A DNA stretch of 8,641 nt from Candidatus Rokuibacteriota bacterium (lineage in GTDB: Bacteria > Methylomirabilota > Methylomirabilia > Rokubacteriales > JACPHL01): positions 1 to 8,641 of the forward strand of contig JACPHL010000290.1 in the NCBI GenBank assembly GCA_016188625.1. Direction: 5' to 3'. A program made the position numbers and the translations under genes. Position 1 is the first letter of the stretch. The number at the start of each line of letters is the position of its first letter. The notes below the pieces were generated by a model, which was given only the letters and a program-made list of their open reading frames with translations, made no database searches and was not told the DNA's origin. Of the stretch, positions 1,287 through 8,641 are shown in pieces.

Positions 1287-2392
1287 CGCACCGCTCCCGC
1301 GCCTCGGTGACGCGCGAGGCACTCCTCGACGTAAGCGGCCATCTCCCCGAGGAAACGCTCCTGGCGGAAGCGGAGGGCGTGGGCCCGGATCTTGTCGGCG
1401 TCGAAGCCGGTCAGCTCGAAGCGGCGGAGGGCGTCGATGAGCGACTCGGGAGTCTGCTCGGCGAAGAAGAGCCCGGTGACCCCGTCCAGCGAGGTCTCCA
1501 GGAGCGCGCCGCGGGCGTAGCCGATCACGGGCCGGCCCGCCGCCATGGCCTCCAGGGGCGCGATCCCGAACTCCTCCTCCGCCGGAAAGACGAAGGCCCG
1601 GCACCGGGCGTACTGCTCGGCGAGAACGCGGTCGTCCTGCCAGCCGAGGAAGCTCACCGTGGGCCCGGCGAGCCGCCGCAGGCGGGCCGCCTCGGCGCCG
1701 TCCCCGATGACCCGGAGCGGCCAGCGGAGCCGGGTGAAGGCCTCGACGGCGACGTCGAGGCGCTTGTAGGGAGCCAAGGCCGAGACGATGAGGAAGAAGT
1801 CCTCGGGCGGGCGCCCATCGGGGACGAAGCGGGCGGTCCGGACCGGCGGGTAGATGACCCGGGCCTCGCGCCCCCAGTGACGCCGGATGCGCTCGGCGAC
1901 GTGGTGGGAGATGCACGCCAGGAAGCCGGGGCGCTGGCCGGCCGCCCGGTCCCACCGCTTCAGCCGGTCCAGGAGCGGCGCCAGCGCCAGGCGCCCGAGC
2001 GGCCCGGCGCCCGCCAGGTAGGTCTCCCGGAGGTCCCAGGCGTAGCGCATCGGGGTGAAGCAGTAGCCGATGTGGCAGGTCGCGGGCGGGGTCCTGGCCC
2101 CGATGGCGACGCAGTGGCTGGTCGAGATCACCAGGTCGAACCCCGAGAGATCGAACCGCTCGACCGCGGCGGGGAAGAGCGGCAGGTAGTGGCGGAAGCG
2201 CCGCGGGGCCAGGGGCAGGCGCTGGATGAAGGAGCTCCGGATCGGGCGCGCCTCAAGGGAAGGGGTCAGGCGATGGGGCCGGTGGACGAGGGTGAAGAGG
2301 GTCGCCTCCGGGAAGAGGGTGACGAGCGCCTCGAGGACCCGCTCGCCCCCCCGCATCCCGGTGAGCCAGTCATGGACCAGGGCGACCCGCAT
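1280..2392 (-). CDS. GT4 family glycosyltransferase, WbaZ-like
   Basis: A predicted cytoplasmic GT-B fold retaining glycosyltransferase of 370 residues that adds a sugar to the lipid-linked polysaccharide intermediate. The N-terminus RVALVHDWLTGMRGGERVLE (2-21) is the typical opening of the WbaZ-like branch of GT4. FFLIVSALAPYKRLDVAVEAF (from 199) carries the phosphate-contacting Lys210-Arg211 region. The family EX7E motif is Glu273 to Glu281 in EEFGIAPLEAMA, followed by GRPVIGYARGALLET, which contacts the nucleotide sugar. Length is normal and no damage is visible. The ATG at 2392 follows the preceding stop after 3 nt, with GAGGG just upstream. This gene differs clearly from the other three glycosyltransferases of the operon, which share another N-terminal signature. 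Mannose is a common donor in the branch, but donor and linkage here are unknown. An internal promoter near 2519-2547 may transcribe this gene separately. Confidence 0.95.
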   Translation of the reverse strand: MRVALVHDWLTGMRGGERVLEALVTLFPEATLFTLVHRPHRLTPSLEARPIRSSFIQRLPLAPRRFRHYLPLFPAAVERFDLSGFDLVISTSHCVAIGARTPPATCHIGYCFTPMRYAWDLRETYLAGAGPLGRLALAPLLDRLKRWDRAAGQRPGFLACISHHVAERIRRHWGREARVIYPPVRTARFVPDGRPPEDFFLIVSALAPYKRLDVAVEAFTRLRWPLRVIGDGAEAARLRRLAGPTVSFLGWQDDRVLAEQYARCRAFVFPAEEEFGIAPLEAMAAGRPVIGYARGALLETSLDGVTGLFFAEQTPESLIDALRRFELTGFDADKIRAHALRFRQERFLGEMAAYVEECLARHRGAGAVRC

Positions 2393-2395
2393 CGC

Positions 2396-3502
2396 TCACC
2401 CTCGCGCCTCCCTGTACACGGCCGCCGTCGCCTCGGCCACCCGACGCCACGAGAACGTCCGCGCCCGCGCGAGCCCGCGCGCCCGAAGCTCATCCCGCAG
2501 GGACAAATCAACCAAGAGATTATACAAAGCGGCCCTCAGGGCGTCAACGTTGGTGGGATCCACTAAAAGCCCCGCCTCGCCGACGACCTCCGGCAGGCCG
2601 CCCCGATCCGTCGCCACGACCGGCGTCCCCGTGGCCATGGCCTCCAGCGCGGGGAGCCCGAACCCCTCCCAGAGCGAGGGGAGGACGAGGAGCTCGGCCC
2701 CCTGGTAGAGGACCGGCATCGTCTCCTCCGCGATCACGCCCAGGACCCGCACCCGCTCCCCGAGGCCGCGCCCGCCCACCTCCCGCTCCACGCCGGGGCG
2801 GGCTCGCTCCGGGGTCCCGGCCAGGACCAGCCGGCCGAGCTTCGGGTCCAGGCCGGCGAAGGCATCGAGGAGGCGCGGGAGGTTCTTGTGGGGCTTCGGG
2901 TTCCCCACGAACAGGAGATACGGCCGCTCGAGCCCGAGCCGGGCGAGCGCGGCGTCCAGGGCCGCGGGGTCCGCGGCCGGGCGGAACCGCCCGTCCACCC
3001 CGTTGGGGATCACGCGGACCTTCCCGGGCGACGCGCCCAGGCGCTCGGCCAGGTCCCTGGCCGTCGCCTCGGAGACCGCGATGATGCGGCGGGCCGACCG
3101 GACCGCGATCCGGAACATCACCCGGGCGTAGAGAGGCGCGAGCGGCGAGGGGAGCTGGTCCGGGAACCGGAGGTGGATGAGGTCGTGGATCGTGACCACG
3201 GCGGGGCAGGGGCGCAGGGGGGGGAGCACGTAGTGGGGAGCGTGGAAGAGGCTCAGGCGGTGACGGGCCATCTGGAGCGGGAGGGCAAGGAGCTCGCGCG
3301 CCGAGTAGGGGGCCGAGCCCTCGACCGCCAGGGTGACACCCGGACGCCCGCCCAGCGGGGAGCCGTGGCGCGCCGCCTCCGTGGGAAGGTAGACCACCAG
3401 CTCCTCCGGGCTCCCCAGGGCCGGGAGCTCCTGGAGCAGGCCGCGGAGATAGGTGCCGATCCCGAAGTCGTGGAGCTTCCGCGCATCGAGACCGACCCTC
3501 AT
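2396..3502 (-). CDS. GT4 family glycosyltransferase, MtfB-like (third of three operon paralogues)
   Basis: A predicted GT-B glycosyltransferase of 368 residues acting in polysaccharide repeat-unit assembly on the cytoplasmic face of the membrane. The N-terminus MRVGLDARKLHDFGIGTYLR contains the glycine-rich start seen in MtfB-like GT4 enzymes. VVTIHDLIHLRFP (102-114) and IIAVSEATARDL (140-151) follow. The donor half begins at YLLFVGNPKPHKNLPRLLDAF (195-215), and the EX7E motif is Glu279 to Glu287 in EGFGLPALEAMATGTPVVA. It ends with the GLARARTFSWRRVAEAT motif shared with its paralogues at 3499-4638 and 6094-7206. The ATG overlaps the previous stop as ATGA (3499-3502). Codons for residues 312-339 are unusually AT-rich (11 of 28 end in A or T, plus three TTG) and embed a promoter-like sequence. 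Protein sequence there (YNLLVDLSL) also departs from the usual RLLEDPALR-type consensus. The sugar specificity is unknown. Confidence 0.95.
   Translation of the reverse strand: MRVGLDARKLHDFGIGTYLRGLLQELPALGSPEELVVYLPTEAARHGSPLGGRPGVTLAVEGSAPYSARELLALPLQMARHRLSLFHAPHYVLPPLRPCPAVVTIHDLIHLRFPDQLPSPLAPLYARVMFRIAVRSARRIIAVSEATARDLAERLGASPGKVRVIPNGVDGRFRPAADPAALDAALARLGLERPYLLFVGNPKPHKNLPRLLDAFAGLDPKLGRLVLAGTPERARPGVEREVGGRGLGERVRVLGVIAEETMPVLYQGAELLVLPSLWEGFGLPALEAMATGTPVVATDRGGLPEVVGEAGLLVDPTNVDALRAALYNLLVDLSLRDELRARGLARARTFSWRRVAEATAAVYREARG
2519..2547 (-). promoter_or_regulatory. Predicted internal sigma-70-type promoter inside a glycosyltransferase gene
   Basis: Read on the minus strand, TTGACG (2547-2542) is followed after exactly 17 nt by a perfect TATAAT (2524-2519). 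It lies within codons 319-328 of the glycosyltransferase gene, and TATAAT supplies its Tyr327-Asn328 codons. Transcription would begin near 2512 and run into the WbaZ-like glycosyltransferase and the priming sugar transferase, with a leader of about 120 nt. The surrounding stretch (2486-2569) is the only clearly AT-rich patch within the operon's coding sequence. The match is seen directly; that it works as a promoter is inference. Confidence 0.55.
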
Positions 3503-4638
3503 GCCCGCCCCCGGCGATGGACCTGCTGGTAGACTTCCCGGGTCTGGATCGCCACCCGCTCCCAGGAGAAGGCCCGGCTCCGCGCGAGCCCGCGGGCCGT
3601 CAACTCGGCGCGGAGTACGGCCTCGGTCAGGACGCGGTGGAGGGCCTCGGCGATCGCCTCGACCTGGTAGGGCGGGACCAGGAGCGCGGCGTCACCCGCC
3701 ACCTCCGGGATCGAGCCGGAGGCCCCGGCGACGACGGGCACCCCGCAGGCCATGGCCTCCAGGACCGGGAGCCCGAACCCTTCGTAGATGGAGGGGAACG
3801 CGAAGGCCTCGGCCATGGAGTAGACCGCAGGGAGGTCCTCCGGGGCGACGTAGCCGGTGAAGATCACCTCCTGCTGGAGGCCGAGCCGCTCGACGGCCTG
3901 GAAGATCGGCCGATAGAGCCACCCCCTCTTGCCGGCCAGGACCAGGCGGTGCGGGAGACGGACGCGCCTCCGGAGCAGGGCGTAGGCCTCGATCAGCCGG
4001 ACCAGGTTCTTCCGGGGCTCGAGGTTGCCGACGAAGAGGATGTAGGGCCCCTCGAGCCGATAGCTCCGCCGGACCGCCTCGAGCCGCGCGGGGTCGCGGA
4101 CCGGCTCGTACCCGGTGCCGAGGGCCGCGTGGATGGTCCGGATCTTCTCCGGCGGCACCCCGAGCTGCCGTACCAGATCCTCGCGGGTCGCCTCGGAGTC
4201 GGCGATGATCCGGTCGGCCGAGCGGACCGAGAGCCGGGTCATCCAGCGCATGTAGATCCCGTACTTGGTCGGGACCGTCTCCGGGAAGAGGAAGGCGACC
4301 AGGTCGTGGATCGTGACCACCGTGCGATAGCCGAGCTTGAGGAGCGGGAGGAAGACCGCCGGCCCGTGGTAGAGGTCCGCCCCGAGGGCGGCGAGCCGGA
4401 AGGGGAGGTAGGAGGACTGCCAGAGATCCCCCACCAGGTGATTCTCGAAGGAGATCCGGGTCACCCACGGGGAGAAGTTGGGCTGGCGGATCCCGGGATC
4501 GGGGCCGTCGCTCACCGTGAGGTAGGTGTAGCGGGTCGTGGGGTCGATGGCGGCCAGGGCCCGGAGGAGGTGCTGGGTGTAGAGCCCGATCCCGGACTGG
4601 AGACGGGAGATGTAGCGAGCATCCACCACCACGTGCAT
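3499..4638 (-). CDS. GT4 family glycosyltransferase, MtfB-like (second of three operon paralogues)
   Basis: A predicted GT-B retaining glycosyltransferase of 379 residues for polysaccharide chain assembly. MHVVVDARYISRLQSGIGLY at the N-terminus holds the family's GIG acceptor-side loop. VVTIHDLVAFLFPE (107-120) and RIIADSEATREDLVRQLG (143-160) follow. YILFVGNLEPRKNLVRLIEAY (199-219) opens the donor domain, and EX7E runs from Glu286 to Glu294 in EGFGLPVLEAMACGVPVVAG. It ends with GLARSRAFSWERVAIQT. The frame is open upstream to 4950, but that extension is low-complexity Arg/Ser/Pro sequence opposite the flippase gene. The ATG at 4638 starts the family motif and has GAGGGG about 5 nt upstream, so I use it. 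It begins 10 nt after the flippase stop, and its own stop overlaps the next ATG. Donor and acceptor are unknown. Confidence 0.95.
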   Translation of the reverse strand: MHVVVDARYISRLQSGIGLYTQHLLRALAAIDPTTRYTYLTVSDGPDPGIRQPNFSPWVTRISFENHLVGDLWQSSYLPFRLAALGADLYHGPAVFLPLLKLGYRTVVTIHDLVAFLFPETVPTKYGIYMRWMTRLSVRSADRIIADSEATREDLVRQLGVPPEKIRTIHAALGTGYEPVRDPARLEAVRRSYRLEGPYILFVGNLEPRKNLVRLIEAYALLRRRVRLPHRLVLAGKRGWLYRPIFQAVERLGLQQEVIFTGYVAPEDLPAVYSMAEAFAFPSIYEGFGLPVLEAMACGVPVVAGASGSIPEVAGDAALLVPPYQVEAIAEALHRVLTEAVLRAELTARGLARSRAFSWERVAIQTREVYQQVHRRGRA

Positions 4639-4648
4639 CAGGGCCCCC

Positions 4649-6097
4649 TCACGACCGGCCGCCCCGGGCGAAAAGGACCTCCCGGAGGAGGCCCCACTCC
4701 TCGCGCGAGAAGATCCTGAGCGCCACCAGGCAGGCGCCGTAGACGGCGAGGGCCAGGGAGACCCTGGCGGTCCAGGGCAGGGGGTTGACGAGGCCGAGGG
4801 CCCCGACCGCCGCCAACCCGGCCAGGAACGGCTTGACCGCGCCCCAGGAGACCGCGAAGGCCGGCCGGACCAGGGCGCCGAGCGCGAGGACGCAGAGGAG
4901 CGCCAGGACCCCCTCGGTGAGGAGCACGCCGAGGCCCCCGCCCGCGGCACCCCAGCGCGCGACCAGCGCCGGGGTCAGGAGGAGGCTGACCCCGAGCCCG
5001 GCGGCGGTCAGCCCCAGGAGGAGGCGTGGCCGGTCGAGGGCCAGGAAGACGAAGAGGAAGAAGTAGGTGAGGAATCCGAAGGGCGTGGACCAGCCGAGGA
5101 GCTGGAGCGCCGGGACGGCCGGGAGATAGGCCGCCCCGTAGAAGAGCGTCACGAGCGGGCCGGCGCCGAAGCCCAAGACGATGGCCAGGGGGAGGCTCAC
5201 GATCAAAAGCCCCCGCACGGACTGGGCCAGGGCGCCCCGGAAGCGCTCGCCGGCCGGGTCGGAGCTGGCCAGGACGGGGAAGAGGGCGGCGGCGAAGGCG
5301 GCCGGGACCAGATCGAGGGCCTCGAGGATCCGGGCCGCGGCCCCGAAGAAGCCGGCCTCCGTCTCCCCCCGGAGGAGCGCCACTGCCAGCGGCGCCACCC
5401 GCCGGGCCGCGAAGGCCAGGAGGAACGCCACGGCCACCGGCCAGATCGTCGCGCCGAGCCGCCAGGCCTCGGCACCGGCCCAGCCCCAGGTGAAGGTCCC
5501 GAAGCGCCGCGCCAGGCGGAGGCCGAGGGCGAGCGTCACGGCCGCCGCGGCCACGTAGGCGAGGGTGAGGCCCAGGAGATGCCACCCCGCCCAGAGGGCC
5601 AGCCCGCCGAGGCCGATGAGGGCGACCTTCCCCGCCAGGCGCAGGGCCAGCTCGTACTCGAGCCGGCCGAAGGCGGTGAAGACCGCGACCACCAGCTCCA
5701 CCAGCGACTGCAGGAGCACGTACGCCGTCAGGAGGTAGACCGCCCAGGTGGTGTCCCAGGCCCGGCCGGTCAGGAGGGGGAGGGCCAGCAGGGCCAGGAC
5801 GATGGGGCCGGCCAGGCCCGCCTTGAAGGTGAGCGCCGCGGTCCACTGGCGGGGCGCCCGGCCGGGGTCGCGGGCGACCTCCCGGATGAACAGGGGGTGG
5901 AGCCCGAGGTCGAGGGCGGCCCCGAAGAGGGTGACGAGGGCGTAGGCGAAGGTGAACTTCCCGAACCCCTCCGGCGCGAGGGTCCGGGCCACGACCATGA
6001 AGAACAGGACGCTCAGGAGGCGGGTCAGGACCTCGGCGGTGGTCTTGGCGAGGAGGTTCCGGGCGATCTGCCGGAGGGTCCCGGTGGCGCGGGTCAT
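4649..6097 (-). CDS. Wzx/MATE-like polysaccharide flippase, oligosaccharide transporter
   Basis: A predicted inner-membrane protein of 482 residues that would flip the undecaprenyl-linked repeat unit to the periplasm. It opens with LRQIARNLLAKTTAEVLTRL (8-27), then LLSVLFFMVVARTLAPEGFGKFTFA (27-51) and LGLHPLFIREVARDPGR (64-80), which is typical of the polysaccharide-type flippase N-terminus. The rest is mostly hydrophobic helices, about 12-14 in number (for example 96-109, 155-170, 176-195, 219-240, 297-315, 338-353, 358-379, 389-413, 421-437). The frame extends upstream to 7036, but that part is a shadow of the adjacent glycosyltransferase. The ATG at 6097 overlaps that gene's stop as ATGA (6094-6097), indicating translational coupling. 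Its position among glycosyltransferases and a priming transferase favours Wzx-type export over a multidrug role. The transported sugar is unknown. Confidence 0.93.
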   Translation of the reverse strand: MTRATGTLRQIARNLLAKTTAEVLTRLLSVLFFMVVARTLAPEGFGKFTFAYALVTLFGAALDLGLHPLFIREVARDPGRAPRQWTAALTFKAGLAGPIVLALLALPLLTGRAWDTTWAVYLLTAYVLLQSLVELVVAVFTAFGRLEYELALRLAGKVALIGLGGLALWAGWHLLGLTLAYVAAAAVTLALGLRLARRFGTFTWGWAGAEAWRLGATIWPVAVAFLLAFAARRVAPLAVALLRGETEAGFFGAAARILEALDLVPAAFAAALFPVLASSDPAGERFRGALAQSVRGLLIVSLPLAIVLGFGAGPLVTLFYGAAYLPAVPALQLLGWSTPFGFLTYFFLFVFLALDRPRLLLGLTAAGLGVSLLLTPALVARWGAAGGGLGVLLTEGVLALLCVLALGALVRPAFAVSWGAVKPFLAGLAAVGALGLVNPLPWTARVSLALAVYGACLVALRIFSREEWGLLREVLFARGGRS

Positions 6098-7206
6098 GCC
6101 GCCACCGCGCGGTAGACCGCCAGGGTCTCCTCGGCGGTCCGCCGCCACGAGAAGCGCCGCGCCCGCTCGAGCCCCCGGGCCCGGAGCCGCTCCCTGAGGC
6201 CGGGGTCGCCCACCAGGACGGCCAGGGCGTCGGCCAGGGGCCCCGCCTCCGGCTCGACCAGGAGCCCCGCGTCCCCGATCAGCTCCGGGAGGGCCCCCCT
6301 GGCCGAGGCGACGACCGGCGCGCCCGAGGCGATCGCCTCGAGCGCGGGGAGCCCGAACCCCTCCCAGAGGGAGGGGAAGACGAAGCCGAGGGCGAGGCTG
6401 TAGAGTCCGGGGAGGTCGGCCTCGGGGACCGGGCCGAGGAACCGCACCGCCCCGTCGAGCCCGAGTCGCTGGACCCGGCGCGGCAGGCCCTCGGTATCCC
6501 AGCCGCCCGCCCCCGCGATGACGAGCTCGATCCCGGCCGGGGCCTGCCCCCCGCGCCGGAGGAGGGCGAAGGCCTCGAGCAGGATGGGGAGGTTCTTCTT
6601 GGGCTCCAGGAGCCCGACGAAGAGCAGGTACTCCCCGGGGAGGGCGTAGCGCTCCCGCAGGGCCTGGCGGAGGGCCGGCGCCTCGAGCGGCCGGAACTGC
6701 TCGCCGACCGCCTGAGGGACGACCACGACCTTGGCCGGGGAGATCCGGAAGCGGTCGAGGGTCTCCCGGCGCGTGGCCTCGGAGACGGCGATGATCCGAT
6801 CCGCCCGCCGGAGGGCGCCCCCGATGAGGAGCCGGAAGGCGACGCGGTGCCGCCAGGGGGTGAGGGCCGGGAAGGTCAGCGGGATCAGGTCGTGCACGGT
6901 CGTGACCAGCCGGAGCCGCCGGGACCGGGGGAGCTCGAAGCCGGTGAGGCTGTGGTAGCAGTCCACCGGCTCCCGGGCCAGGGCGCGGGGGAGGCTCCAG
7001 AGCGACCAGACCAGACGGTGGGGGCCGCCCAGGCACCGCTGCGTGATCCGCGGGGAGGCCGGGATGGCCTCGAGGGGGGCGTCGGTGAAGAGGACCAGCT
7101 CCTCGTCGCCCGGAAGACCGGCGAGCGCCGTCACCAGCTGCCGGGTGTACCGGGCGATCCCGCTCCGGGGTTCGCCCATCAGCCTGGCATCAAGACCGAT
7201 CCTCAT
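6094..7206 (-). CDS. GT4 family glycosyltransferase, MtfB-like (first gene of the leftward operon)
   Basis: A predicted GT-B glycosyltransferase of 370 residues and the first gene of the leftward polysaccharide operon in this window. MRIGLDARLMGEPRSGIARY starts the protein. VTTVHDLIPLTFPALTP (101-117) and RIIAVSEATRRETLDRF (137-153) follow. The donor domain starts at YLLFVGLLEPKKNLPILLEAF (193-213), and EX7E spans Glu282 to Glu290 in EGFGLPALEAIASGAPVVAS. The C-terminal GLERARRFSWRRTAEETLAVY matches the two downstream paralogues. The ATG at 7206 is the only plausible start: no ATG or GTG lies in frame within about 45 nt upstream. The Shine-Dalgarno is poor, with GAAGAGG only 2 nt and AAGGA about 12 nt upstream. 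Sugar specificity cannot be inferred. Confidence 0.95.
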   Translation of the reverse strand: MRIGLDARLMGEPRSGIARYTRQLVTALAGLPGDEELVLFTDAPLEAIPASPRITQRCLGGPHRLVWSLWSLPRALAREPVDCYHSLTGFELPRSRRLRLVTTVHDLIPLTFPALTPWRHRVAFRLLIGGALRRADRIIAVSEATRRETLDRFRISPAKVVVVPQAVGEQFRPLEAPALRQALRERYALPGEYLLFVGLLEPKKNLPILLEAFALLRRGGQAPAGIELVIAGAGGWDTEGLPRRVQRLGLDGAVRFLGPVPEADLPGLYSLALGFVFPSLWEGFGLPALEAIASGAPVVASARGALPELIGDAGLLVEPEAGPLADALAVLVGDPGLRERLRARGLERARRFSWRRTAEETLAVYRAVAA

Positions 7207-7265
7207 AACCTCTTCGATTCCTTGGCTTTTCCGCCCCAGTCCAGCGCCGCGCCTCCCCCTCCCAC

Positions 7266-7289
7266 AAGGAGAACCCGAAGTTTCCCCTT
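7266..7289. repeat. Imperfect inverted repeat abutting the -35 box
   Basis: Arms AAGGAGAA (7266-7273) and TTCCCCTT (7282-7289) pair at 7 of 8 positions around an 8-nt centre. The right arm ends inside the TTGACT box of the predicted rightward promoter, so it could be an operator. Length and perfection are modest for GC-rich DNA, and no regulator is encoded in the window, so this is a weak call. Confidence 0.3.
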
Positions 7290-7313
7290 GACTCGATCGG
7301 GATATGTGATAAT
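7288..7313 (+). promoter_or_regulatory. Predicted promoter of the rhodanese-MoeB gene
   Basis: TTGACT (7288-7293) resembles a -35 box. TGTGATAAT (7305-7313) is an extended -10 element, a TG dinucleotide one base before GATAAT. The 14-nt spacer is short, but extended -10 promoters depend less on the -35 box. Transcription would start near 7319-7321 and give a leader of about 27 nt ending in the ribosome binding site. Confidence 0.5.
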
Positions 7314-7332
7314 TTGACGCCTGTCATCTGCC

Positions 7333-7342
7333 GAGGAGGGGG
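7333..7342 (+). promoter_or_regulatory. Strong Shine-Dalgarno that fixes the ATG at 7347
   Basis: GAGGAGGGGG ends 4 nt before the ATG at 7347. It rules out the upstream in-frame TTG at 7314, which would add 11 residues translated across the Shine-Dalgarno itself. Starting at 7347 gives MKTFREMVAEAKQ, a sensible N-terminus for a rhodanese domain. Confidence 0.85.
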
Positions 7343-7346
7343 TGCC

Positions 7347-8641
7347 ATGAAGACGTTTCGGGAGATGGTCGCCGAGGCCAAGCAGGTCGTCCCCGAGGTC
7401 TCGGTCGAGGAGGTGCGGGAGCGGCTCGACCGCCAGGAGCCGATCGTCCTCGTCGACGTCCGCGACCCGGACGAGTACCGCGAGGGGTACATCGACCCGG
7501 CCGTCAACATCAGCCGCGGCTTTCTCGAGTTCAAGATCCAGGACGTCTACCCGGACCCCTCCACGCCCCTCGTCCTCTACTGCCTCTCCGGCCTCCGCTC
7601 GATCCTGGCCGCCAAGGCCCTCCGGGAGCTCGGCTACGAGAACGTCGCCTCCCTGGCCGGCGGCGTCCGCCGGTGGAAGGAGCTGAAGCTCCCCCTCGCG
7701 AAGGAGGAGCCGCTCACCCCGGCGCAGATGGAGCGCTACAGCCGCCACTTCATGCTGGCGCAGGTCGGGGAGCGCGGGCAGAAGCAACTCCTCCGCGCCA
7801 AGGTGCTCCTCATCGGGGCCGGCGGGCTCGGCTCGCCGACCGGCGTCTACCTCGCGGCCGTCGGCGTGGGAACCCTGGGGATCATCGACTCGGACGCGGT
7901 GGATCTCTCGAACCTCCAGCGGCAGATCCTCCATCGCACCCCCGACGTGGGGCGGCCCAAGGTGGACTCGGCGCGGGAGACCATCCAGGCCCTCAACCCC
8001 GACGTCACGGTCATCCCCTACCGGAGTCGCCTCACGGTCGAGAACATCGAGGAGATCATCCGCGACTACGACATCATCGTGGACGGCTCGGACAACTTCG
8101 ACACCCGCTACCTGGTCAACGACGCCTGCTACCTGGCCGGCAAGCCCAACGTCCACGGCTCCATCTTCCAGTTCGAGGGGATGGTGACGGTCCTCGCCCC
8201 GGGCCGGGGCCCCTGCTACCGCTGCCTCTACCCGACCCCGCCGCCCGCGGGCCTGGTCCCGTCCTGAAACGAGGCGGGCGTCCTGGGCGTGCTCCCGGGA
8301 CTGATCGGGGTGGTGCAGGCCACCGAGGCGGTGAAGCTCATCCTGGGCAAGGGCGACCCACTCATCGGGCGGCTCCTCACCTACGACGCCCTGGGGATGC
8401 GCTTCCGCGAGGTGAAGCTCCGGCGGGACCCCGGCTGCCCGCTCTGCGGGAGCCAGCCGACGATCCGGGACCTCTCGCTCCACCGGCACGGCGCGGCCCA
8501 GGCCTGCGCCCTCGAGCCGGGCAACGGGATCAACGATGGGCTCGGCTGGAAGCTCACCGCCGCCAACATGACGATCGCCAGCGGCGCCAGTGTCAATGCC
8601 GATGGGAAGGGGTTTGCTGGTGGTAATAGTTCCGCTGGCCT
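7347..8641 (+). CDS. moeB: Rhodanese-MoeB/ThiF fusion, predicted selenoprotein with in-frame UGA (Sec307); runs off window
   Basis: A predicted cytoplasmic sulfurtransferase fused to an E1-like adenylyltransferase. The family activates the C-terminus of a MoaD/ThiS-type ubiquitin-like sulfur carrier with ATP and helps load sulfur on it. The rhodanese domain spans about residues 15-117, with catalytic-loop Cys79 in YCLSGLRS. The E1 domain starts near 125 (MERYSRHFMLAQVGERG) with ATP-binding GAGGLGS (157-163), DLSNLQRQILH (186-196) and DGSDNFDTRYLVND (246-259). Cys290 and Cys293 form the first zinc pair. After VPS306 comes UGA (8265-8267), then NEAGVLGVLPGLIGVVQATE, and the second zinc pair Cys364/Cys367. 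The UGA occupies the place of the conserved sulfur-transfer cysteine of ThiF, Uba4 and MOCS3. Readthrough as selenocysteine is supported by a downstream hairpin. Stopping at the UGA would give 306 residues lacking half the zinc site. The last 40-60 residues look foreign. A nonsense mutation or base error is the main alternative. Confidence 0.8.
8265..8267 (+). other. In-frame UGA, predicted selenocysteine codon (residue 307)
   Basis: TGA falls between VPS and NEAGVLG, where relatives have Cys in the pattern PS-C-xE-(A/G)-GVLG. The same frame continues with unmistakable family sequence for at least 60 codons on both sides and needs no frameshift. A single TGC-to-TGA change would give the same picture, so the hairpin and the presence of sel genes elsewhere in the genome decide the matter. 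Confidence 0.75.
8280..8301 (+). promoter_or_regulatory. Candidate bacterial SECIS hairpin
   Basis: GTCCTGGG (8280-8287) pairs with CCCGGGAC (8294-8301) over 8 bp, with one T-G wobble (8284-8297) and no bulge. The loop is CGTGCT (8288-8293). The loop begins 20 nt after the UGA, inside the 16-37 nt spacing known for bacterial SECIS elements. G is the second loop base and is followed by T, fitting the requirement for a G among the first two loop positions. In the model, SelB bound to this hairpin delivers Sec-tRNA to the UGA. GC-rich DNA forms hairpins easily, so the placement counts for more than the stem alone. Confidence 0.65.
8490..8641 (+). other. Anomalous right edge: open tail resembling a beta-helix surface protein, possible chimeric join
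   Basis: The E1 domain should finish shortly after CPLCGSQPTIRDLSLHRH (364-381), yet no stop codon occurs before the window ends. The translation shifts to WKLTAANMTIASGASVNADG followed by a Gly/Asn/Ser-rich stretch, a style I associate with repeat-rich secreted or autotransporter-like proteins. From 8589 only 7 of 17 codons end in G or C, against nearly all codons before. The exact join cannot be placed; it probably lies between about 8490 and 8590. A real fusion is less likely than an assembly chimera or a genomic breakpoint. Confidence 0.5.

Follow-up and report, generated by a model that had tools for sequence, protein, structure and literature searches.

A predicted selenocysteine at the E1 catalytic cysteine position of a rhodanese-MoeB fusion protein in Rokubacteriales

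A rhodanese-MoeB gene of a Candidatus Rokuibacteriota bacterium contains an in-frame UGA codon, residue 307, which almost certainly inserts selenocysteine (Sec) in place of the catalytic cysteine of the E1 domain, as indicated by codon conservation and alignment. The gene lies at the end of an 8,641-nucleotide stretch of contig JACPHL010000290.1, referred to below as the window. We consider it very probable that its product is a selenoprotein in which Sec307 serves as the E1 catalytic residue, the UGA is decoded by SelB with the help of a downstream hairpin, and the reaction proceeds through an acyl-selenoester. The sequences show the Sec codon, the SECIS-like hairpin, the Sec machinery, the equivalence of the site to known catalytic cysteines, and the position of the enzyme as the sole E1 of its type in family f2; the acyl-selenoester and the choice of carriers are inferred.

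Results

The reading frame and its domains

The gene (7347-8528, plus strand) shows homology over its whole frame, and its true stop is not within the window. According to the open reading frames of the window, it starts in frame +1 at ATG 7347, 3' of a Shine-Dalgarno-like stretch (GAGGAGGGGG), and runs for 306 codons to the TGA at 8265-8267, so standard annotation would indeed end it at 8267, as an earlier sequence-only reading had warned. This TGA is the sole in-frame stop of the gene within the window. After it, the frame runs on as NEAGVLGVLPGLIGVVQATEAVKLILG...CPLCG with no further stop up to the contig end. The stop codons of relatives are located about 83-110 codons past the Sec.

The N-terminal rhodanese domain (aa 19-112, 7401-7682, plus strand; Pfam PF00581, 67.9 bits) contains the active-site Cys79 (TGC, 7581-7583, motif YCLSGLRS), which is the presumed persulfide carrier and corresponds in its role to C397 of CtUba4 (PMC7527816). 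Each of the 81 fusion loci in the examined set has Cys at this position, and one relative, L160, has a UGA there. The E1/adenylation (ThiF/MoeB) domain follows (aa 131-365, 7737-8441, plus strand; Pfam PF00899, 286.8 bits), and its Pfam match spans the UGA codon without a break, in agreement with the earlier description of E1 motifs on both sides of the UGA in one frame. The QATEAVKLILG helix is intact, as are the two zinc CxxC pairs. The columns of the first pair (C290 and C293, 8214-8225, plus strand) are invariant in the alignment of relatives; in the second (C364 and C367, 8436-8447, plus strand) C364 is invariant and C367 nearly so. Over aa 4-375 the protein scores 536 bits with NCBIfam NF006444, the rhodanese-MoeB fusion family, and so passes its curated cut-off of 449 bits.

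The minus strand of the window between positions 1 and 7206 carries a polysaccharide cluster, in which several glycosyltransferase genes are related to one another (repeat families D1-D6) and one gene resembles a membrane flippase. At the other end, from about 8520 to 8641, the contig is lower in GC and its frame is rich in Gly, Asn and Ser, unlike the C-termini of relatives. This segment is possibly a chimeric assembly end. A search of the contig tail (8480-8641) for a phage match found none.

Conservation of the UGA codon and the Sec machinery

In 110 aligned loci, which include some genomes counted twice because they were reached by two tools, the site codon is TGA in 62 cases and TGC or TGT in the other 48, and it is never TAA, TAG or anything else. 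This pattern far exceeds chance. A search of 95 genomes of the phylum found TGA at the site in 54 of 54 gene-bearing Rokubacteriales genomes and in all four genomes of the neighbouring family f7, and the retrieved loci confirmed the codon. Two genomes from a different phylum have TGA as well. The remaining families of the class carry a MoeB without the TGA, with Cys in the four that were sampled; in one of these remaining families the phylum search showed a TAA inside the MoeB match. All non-Sec homologues examined have a Cys at the site, and the protein sequence 3' of the UGA is strongly conserved among relatives. The sequence-only reading had called this residue a probable selenocysteine, for which homologues should align Cys or Sec, and had regarded varied stop codons or decay past the site in relatives as signs to the contrary. 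The homologues have Cys or UGA exactly there, and neither of the contrary signs was seen.

The genome itself (G000) contains tRNA-Sec, selA, selB and selD, all above curated cut-offs, so that the four genes for which the earlier reading had suggested looking are all present. A single 6.9-kb contig carries the tRNA-Sec (75.7 bits), selA (600 bits) and selB (381 bits). ARAGORN agrees on the tRNA, the anticodon of which is UCA. The selD gene (L137; G000:C179:1347-2267, minus strand; profile match 396 bits) has an in-frame UGA of its own at the Cys position, LSHGAGUACKLGPEDL. Of 59 relatives, 48 have a tRNA-Sec that exceeds the cut-off, as do all four genomes of family f7. About one fifth of the relatives, however, gave no tRNA-Sec over the cut-off with stricter filters, which counts against the Sec reading. 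Genomes with the Sec gene yet no such match include G007, which is rated 100% complete, G013, G018, G021, G026 and others. The missing matches may reflect gaps, filter loss or something else.

A hairpin downstream of the UGA

Support that the earlier reading had not considered comes from the nucleotides that follow the UGA. The alignment of 47 distinct Rokubacteriales genes has 153 conserved columns with a four- or six-fold degenerate residue. A single codon is used in at least 97% of the genes in only 7 of these columns, and 6 of the 7 are codons +5 to +10 after the UGA (hypergeometric P of about 4e-10, a figure that is only a guide as the genes are related). The same codons vary in the Cys homologues and show no such freeze. 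The frozen stretch (8280-8301, plus strand) folds as an 8-bp hairpin, GUCCUGGG-CGUGCU-CCCGGGAC. The bSECISearch range for bacterial SECIS elements is a hairpin about 16-37 nt from the UGA, the loop being small and including a G. With eight base pairs and the loop CGUGCU starting 20 nt past the UGA, the hairpin falls within it.

The stem and the loop of L160, which comes from another phylum, are identical to those of the Rokubacteriales hairpin. In family f7 and in L159 the stem is shifted and the loops are GGUCCUG and AGUUUUA, respectively, with GU kept at the same place. The folding energy itself is unexceptional in comparison with dinucleotide shuffles (z of +0.36) and marginal in comparison with synonymous recoding (P of 0.017 in the window and about 0.1 in a typical relative), and was dropped as a proof of a SECIS element. 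Because the energy alone is not exceptional, the case for a SECIS element rests on codon freezing.

The catalytic site

In alignments, residue 307 falls on a Cys of Chaetomium Uba4 (6yub; the residue is Lys in 6yuc and 6z6s) and on the corresponding Cys of E. coli MoeB. The UGA at 8265-8267 (plus strand) thus takes the place of the thioester-forming Cys on the crossover loop of Uba4 (C202), MoeB and ThiF, and the earlier proposal that it replaces the conserved sulfur-transfer Cys agrees with these alignments. The AlphaFold model of the protein has a mean pLDDT of 87.8 and superimposes on MoeB (1jw9) with a Z-score of 35.1 and an rmsd of 1.4 over 237 residues, on ThiF (1zud) with a Z-score of 33.9 and on Uba4 (6yub) with a Z-score of 31.4. 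Residue 307 comes right after a low-confidence loop, residues 301-306, which in the model fits a flexible crossover loop, as would be expected. E. coli MoeB and ThiF therefore have a similar E1 domain, but they use Cys and have no rhodanese in the E1 chain.

In Uba4, C202 is situated on the crossover loop and forms a thioester with the carrier; in the next step, as modelled, the persulfide on the rhodanese C397 attacks this thioester and displaces C202 (PMC7527816). By analogy with this acyl-transfer chemistry, the following mechanism can be proposed. SelB with Sec-tRNA would decode the UGA, directed by the hairpin just 3' of it. The E1 domain would adenylate the C-terminal GlyGly of ubiquitin-fold sulfur carriers, presumably MoaD for the molybdenum cofactor, ThiS and others, and Sec307 would capture the carrier as an acyl-selenoester. 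The Cys79 persulfide of the rhodanese domain would then attack the selenoester to give an acyl-disulfide, the reduction of which would yield the carrier thiocarboxylate, while Sec307 would be released and recycled. The most likely benefit of selenium would be faster acyl capture and release, or resistance to oxidation. In E. coli MoeB the Cys equivalent to residue 307 is dispensable, and hence Sec307 might not be catalytic as assumed.

Carriers and paralogues

The genomes of family f2 contain no second MoeB-type E1 at E <= 1e-60 in the phylum search, and a separate search outside G000, G002 and G003 gave no other MoeB-type E1 above about 46 bits. MoaE is present in 56 of 59 relatives and ThiS-family carriers in all 59, with several per genome; in the genome of the window a MoaD-like carrier gene adjoins MoaE (C271). 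As the Sec enzyme is the sole MoeB-type E1 of family f2, while MoaE and the carriers are present, it is the likely carrier activator. By analogy, it probably activates all the ThiS and MoaD carriers of family f2 via an acyl-selenoester. A Cys-containing MoeB paralogue in the genome of the window and in two close families (L129, L130 and L135) counts against the main reading. The L129 type was found in this genome, G002 and G003, but not in family f2.

L129 itself (G000:C224) is a Cys MoeB without a rhodanese domain and is followed by an aminotransferase-like gene. The UGA in the G003 paralogue (L130) was considered as a further Sec copy and rejected, as it is the normal stop of that gene. Genome G001, which is rated 100% complete, has no match to a MoeB-type E1, yet it has MoaE and seven ThiS-family carriers.

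Phylogeny and unusual relatives

A tree of the E1 domain, calculated with the site omitted, requires two changes for Sec. The Sec sequences cluster in this tree, and a pair of Cys sequences, L039 and L133, is nested inside the Rokubacteriales Sec clade. A single clade of Sec sequences that excludes this pair was rejected (AU p of 0.0007). The pair has lost the frozen codons and, to judge from its sequences, is a natural Sec-to-Cys reversion. Caution is called for as the genome bin concerned, G056, has 9% contamination and contains a Sec copy as well, along with two variants that have Cys. The nested Cys versions in G056 (L039, L133 and L134) are on a longer branch, and their codon freezing is gone.

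Two further Sec MoeB genes came from a pattern scan that covered 395 genomes of the phylum to which L049 belongs. By frame reading, the rhodanese-MoeB gene L160 (G134:C67:1-8000, codons 82 and 310) has a UGA both at the rhodanese active-site codon (VVYU-ASGLRS) and at the E1 catalytic Cys, in a single genome. A hairpin with the loop CGUGCU is found about 17 nt downstream of the rhodanese UGA, as at the E1 UGA of the same gene. We regard as evenly balanced the joint proposition that the enzyme is an acyl-selenoester E1, sole in most of the order, that sulfur transfer there depends on selenium, and that L160 performs a Sec-to-Sec relay.

Discussion

Of the alternatives, the one that survives best grants the Sec enzyme but gives it another main client, a CysO-like carrier for cysteine synthesis in place of MoaD or ThiS. 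It draws on the L159 gene run (G144:C9:187500-197245, 2044-8051), where the Sec rhodanese-MoeB gene has as neighbours a ThiS-NIL carrier, a JAB peptidase, a double rhodanese and two PLP-dependent enzymes of the threonine/cysteine synthase type. This combination would be expected of thiocarboxylate-dependent cysteine synthesis, and a selenium-dependent cysteine operon is possible there. In Rokubacteriales, however, the Sec gene stands alone next to polysaccharide genes, with MoCF_biosynth (MoaB-like) genes at a distance of a few genes in two of the loci, and in the genome of the window it is a MoaD-like carrier that is adjacent to MoaE. We consider this alternative unlikely. A second alternative is that Sec is real but chiefly regulatory, so that the selenium supply, through the UGA, sets how much E1 is made and the catalytic gain is minor. 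Cys works in the homologues and one lineage has gone back to Cys, as this alternative would have it. Sec is nevertheless located exactly at the catalytic residue, as in enzymes with a catalytic gain, and a selenium-conditional molybdenum cofactor would be costly to family f2, which has one MoeB-type E1. A chiefly regulatory role is thus rather improbable.

The remaining two alternatives deny that Sec is inserted. In the first, the UGA ends the protein and the rest is a remnant, be it through a nonsense mutation, an error of sequencing or the decay of a pseudogene. This would suit a draft contig on which standard annotation stops at 8267, but it is hardly credible: every orthologue in an entire order, and others outside it, carries UGA at this same codon, the downstream protein is strongly conserved, there is no TAA or TAG alternative, and the downstream codons are frozen. 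A changed genetic code with UGA as a sense codon, for which the one in-frame UGA of the gene could be invoked, is the least credible of all since the five other window frames checked all end in TGA, the UCA-anticodon tRNA is tRNA-Sec, and UGA occupies a Cys position in both this gene and selD.

Returning to the selenoprotein reading, the selenium-containing MoeB is of a known kind, as it was reported in 2005 and 2008. The Sargasso Sea survey (11 sequences; PMC1088965) and the GOS survey (19 sequences; PMC2398784) predict MoeB selenoproteins, in agreement with what the sequence-only reading said of marine surveys. The family is retained in reviews of 2022 and 2026 (PMC9312934, PMC13188914), the latter of which mentions 63 predicted selenoproteins in one genome of Methylomirabilota. 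The marine proteins are likewise MoeB/ThiF-type E1 enzymes (COG0476, PF00899) with a predicted Sec. They are survey sequences, whereas here the gene is fixed across an order. Presumably, pfam05237 is the C-terminal region of MoeB and MoeZ and holds the residue 307 site. The 2008 survey assigns the marine family to pfam05237, consistent with the same Sec site at the level of the family and not of aligned positions, and mentions no rhodanese among the fusions that it describes (PMC2398784), whereas a rhodanese is fused to the E1 here.

The NF006444/PRK08762 fusions of Luteibacter and others have the same domain order as the present protein. Those of Luteibacter and Luteimonas have Cys at 307 in the motif APNC, where the present protein has VPSU. 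Uba4/MOCS3, which activates Urm1 and MOCS2A in eukaryotes, also combines E1 and rhodanese in one chain and has its catalytic crossover-loop residue at the same position, but this residue is Cys (C202) and not Sec. The likeness to Uba4/MOCS3 drawn by the earlier reading thus holds for the residue, as the Uba4 alignment indicates, and fails for the domain order, as the rhodanese of Uba4/MOCS3 is C-terminal and the one described here (aa 19-112) precedes the E1. The literature searched contained no paper on Sec in a Rokubacteria MoeB and no functional study of MoeB selenoproteins. A rhodanese-fused, order-fixed, reverted or double-Sec MoeB was absent from it as well, the primary 2026 groundwater study being outside this search. 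The rhodanese fusion, the fixation as a sole E1 across the order and the relative in which both catalytic residues are Sec are new here.

The Sec rhodanese-MoeB is shared by almost all of an order of bacteria from soil and groundwater, and standard annotation rules wrongly end its gene in dozens of genomes. Sec on the E1 catalytic residue links selenium to sulfur-carrier activation, to the molybdenum cofactor and perhaps to thiamine and cysteine synthesis. Since the Sec enzyme is for the most part the only MoeB-type E1 of the order, and a Cys reversion is nested there, the benefit of Sec in acyl transfer can be tested cleanly. If the reading is true, most of the order would need selenium for its molybdenum cofactor and for the other sulfur transfer that relies on carriers.
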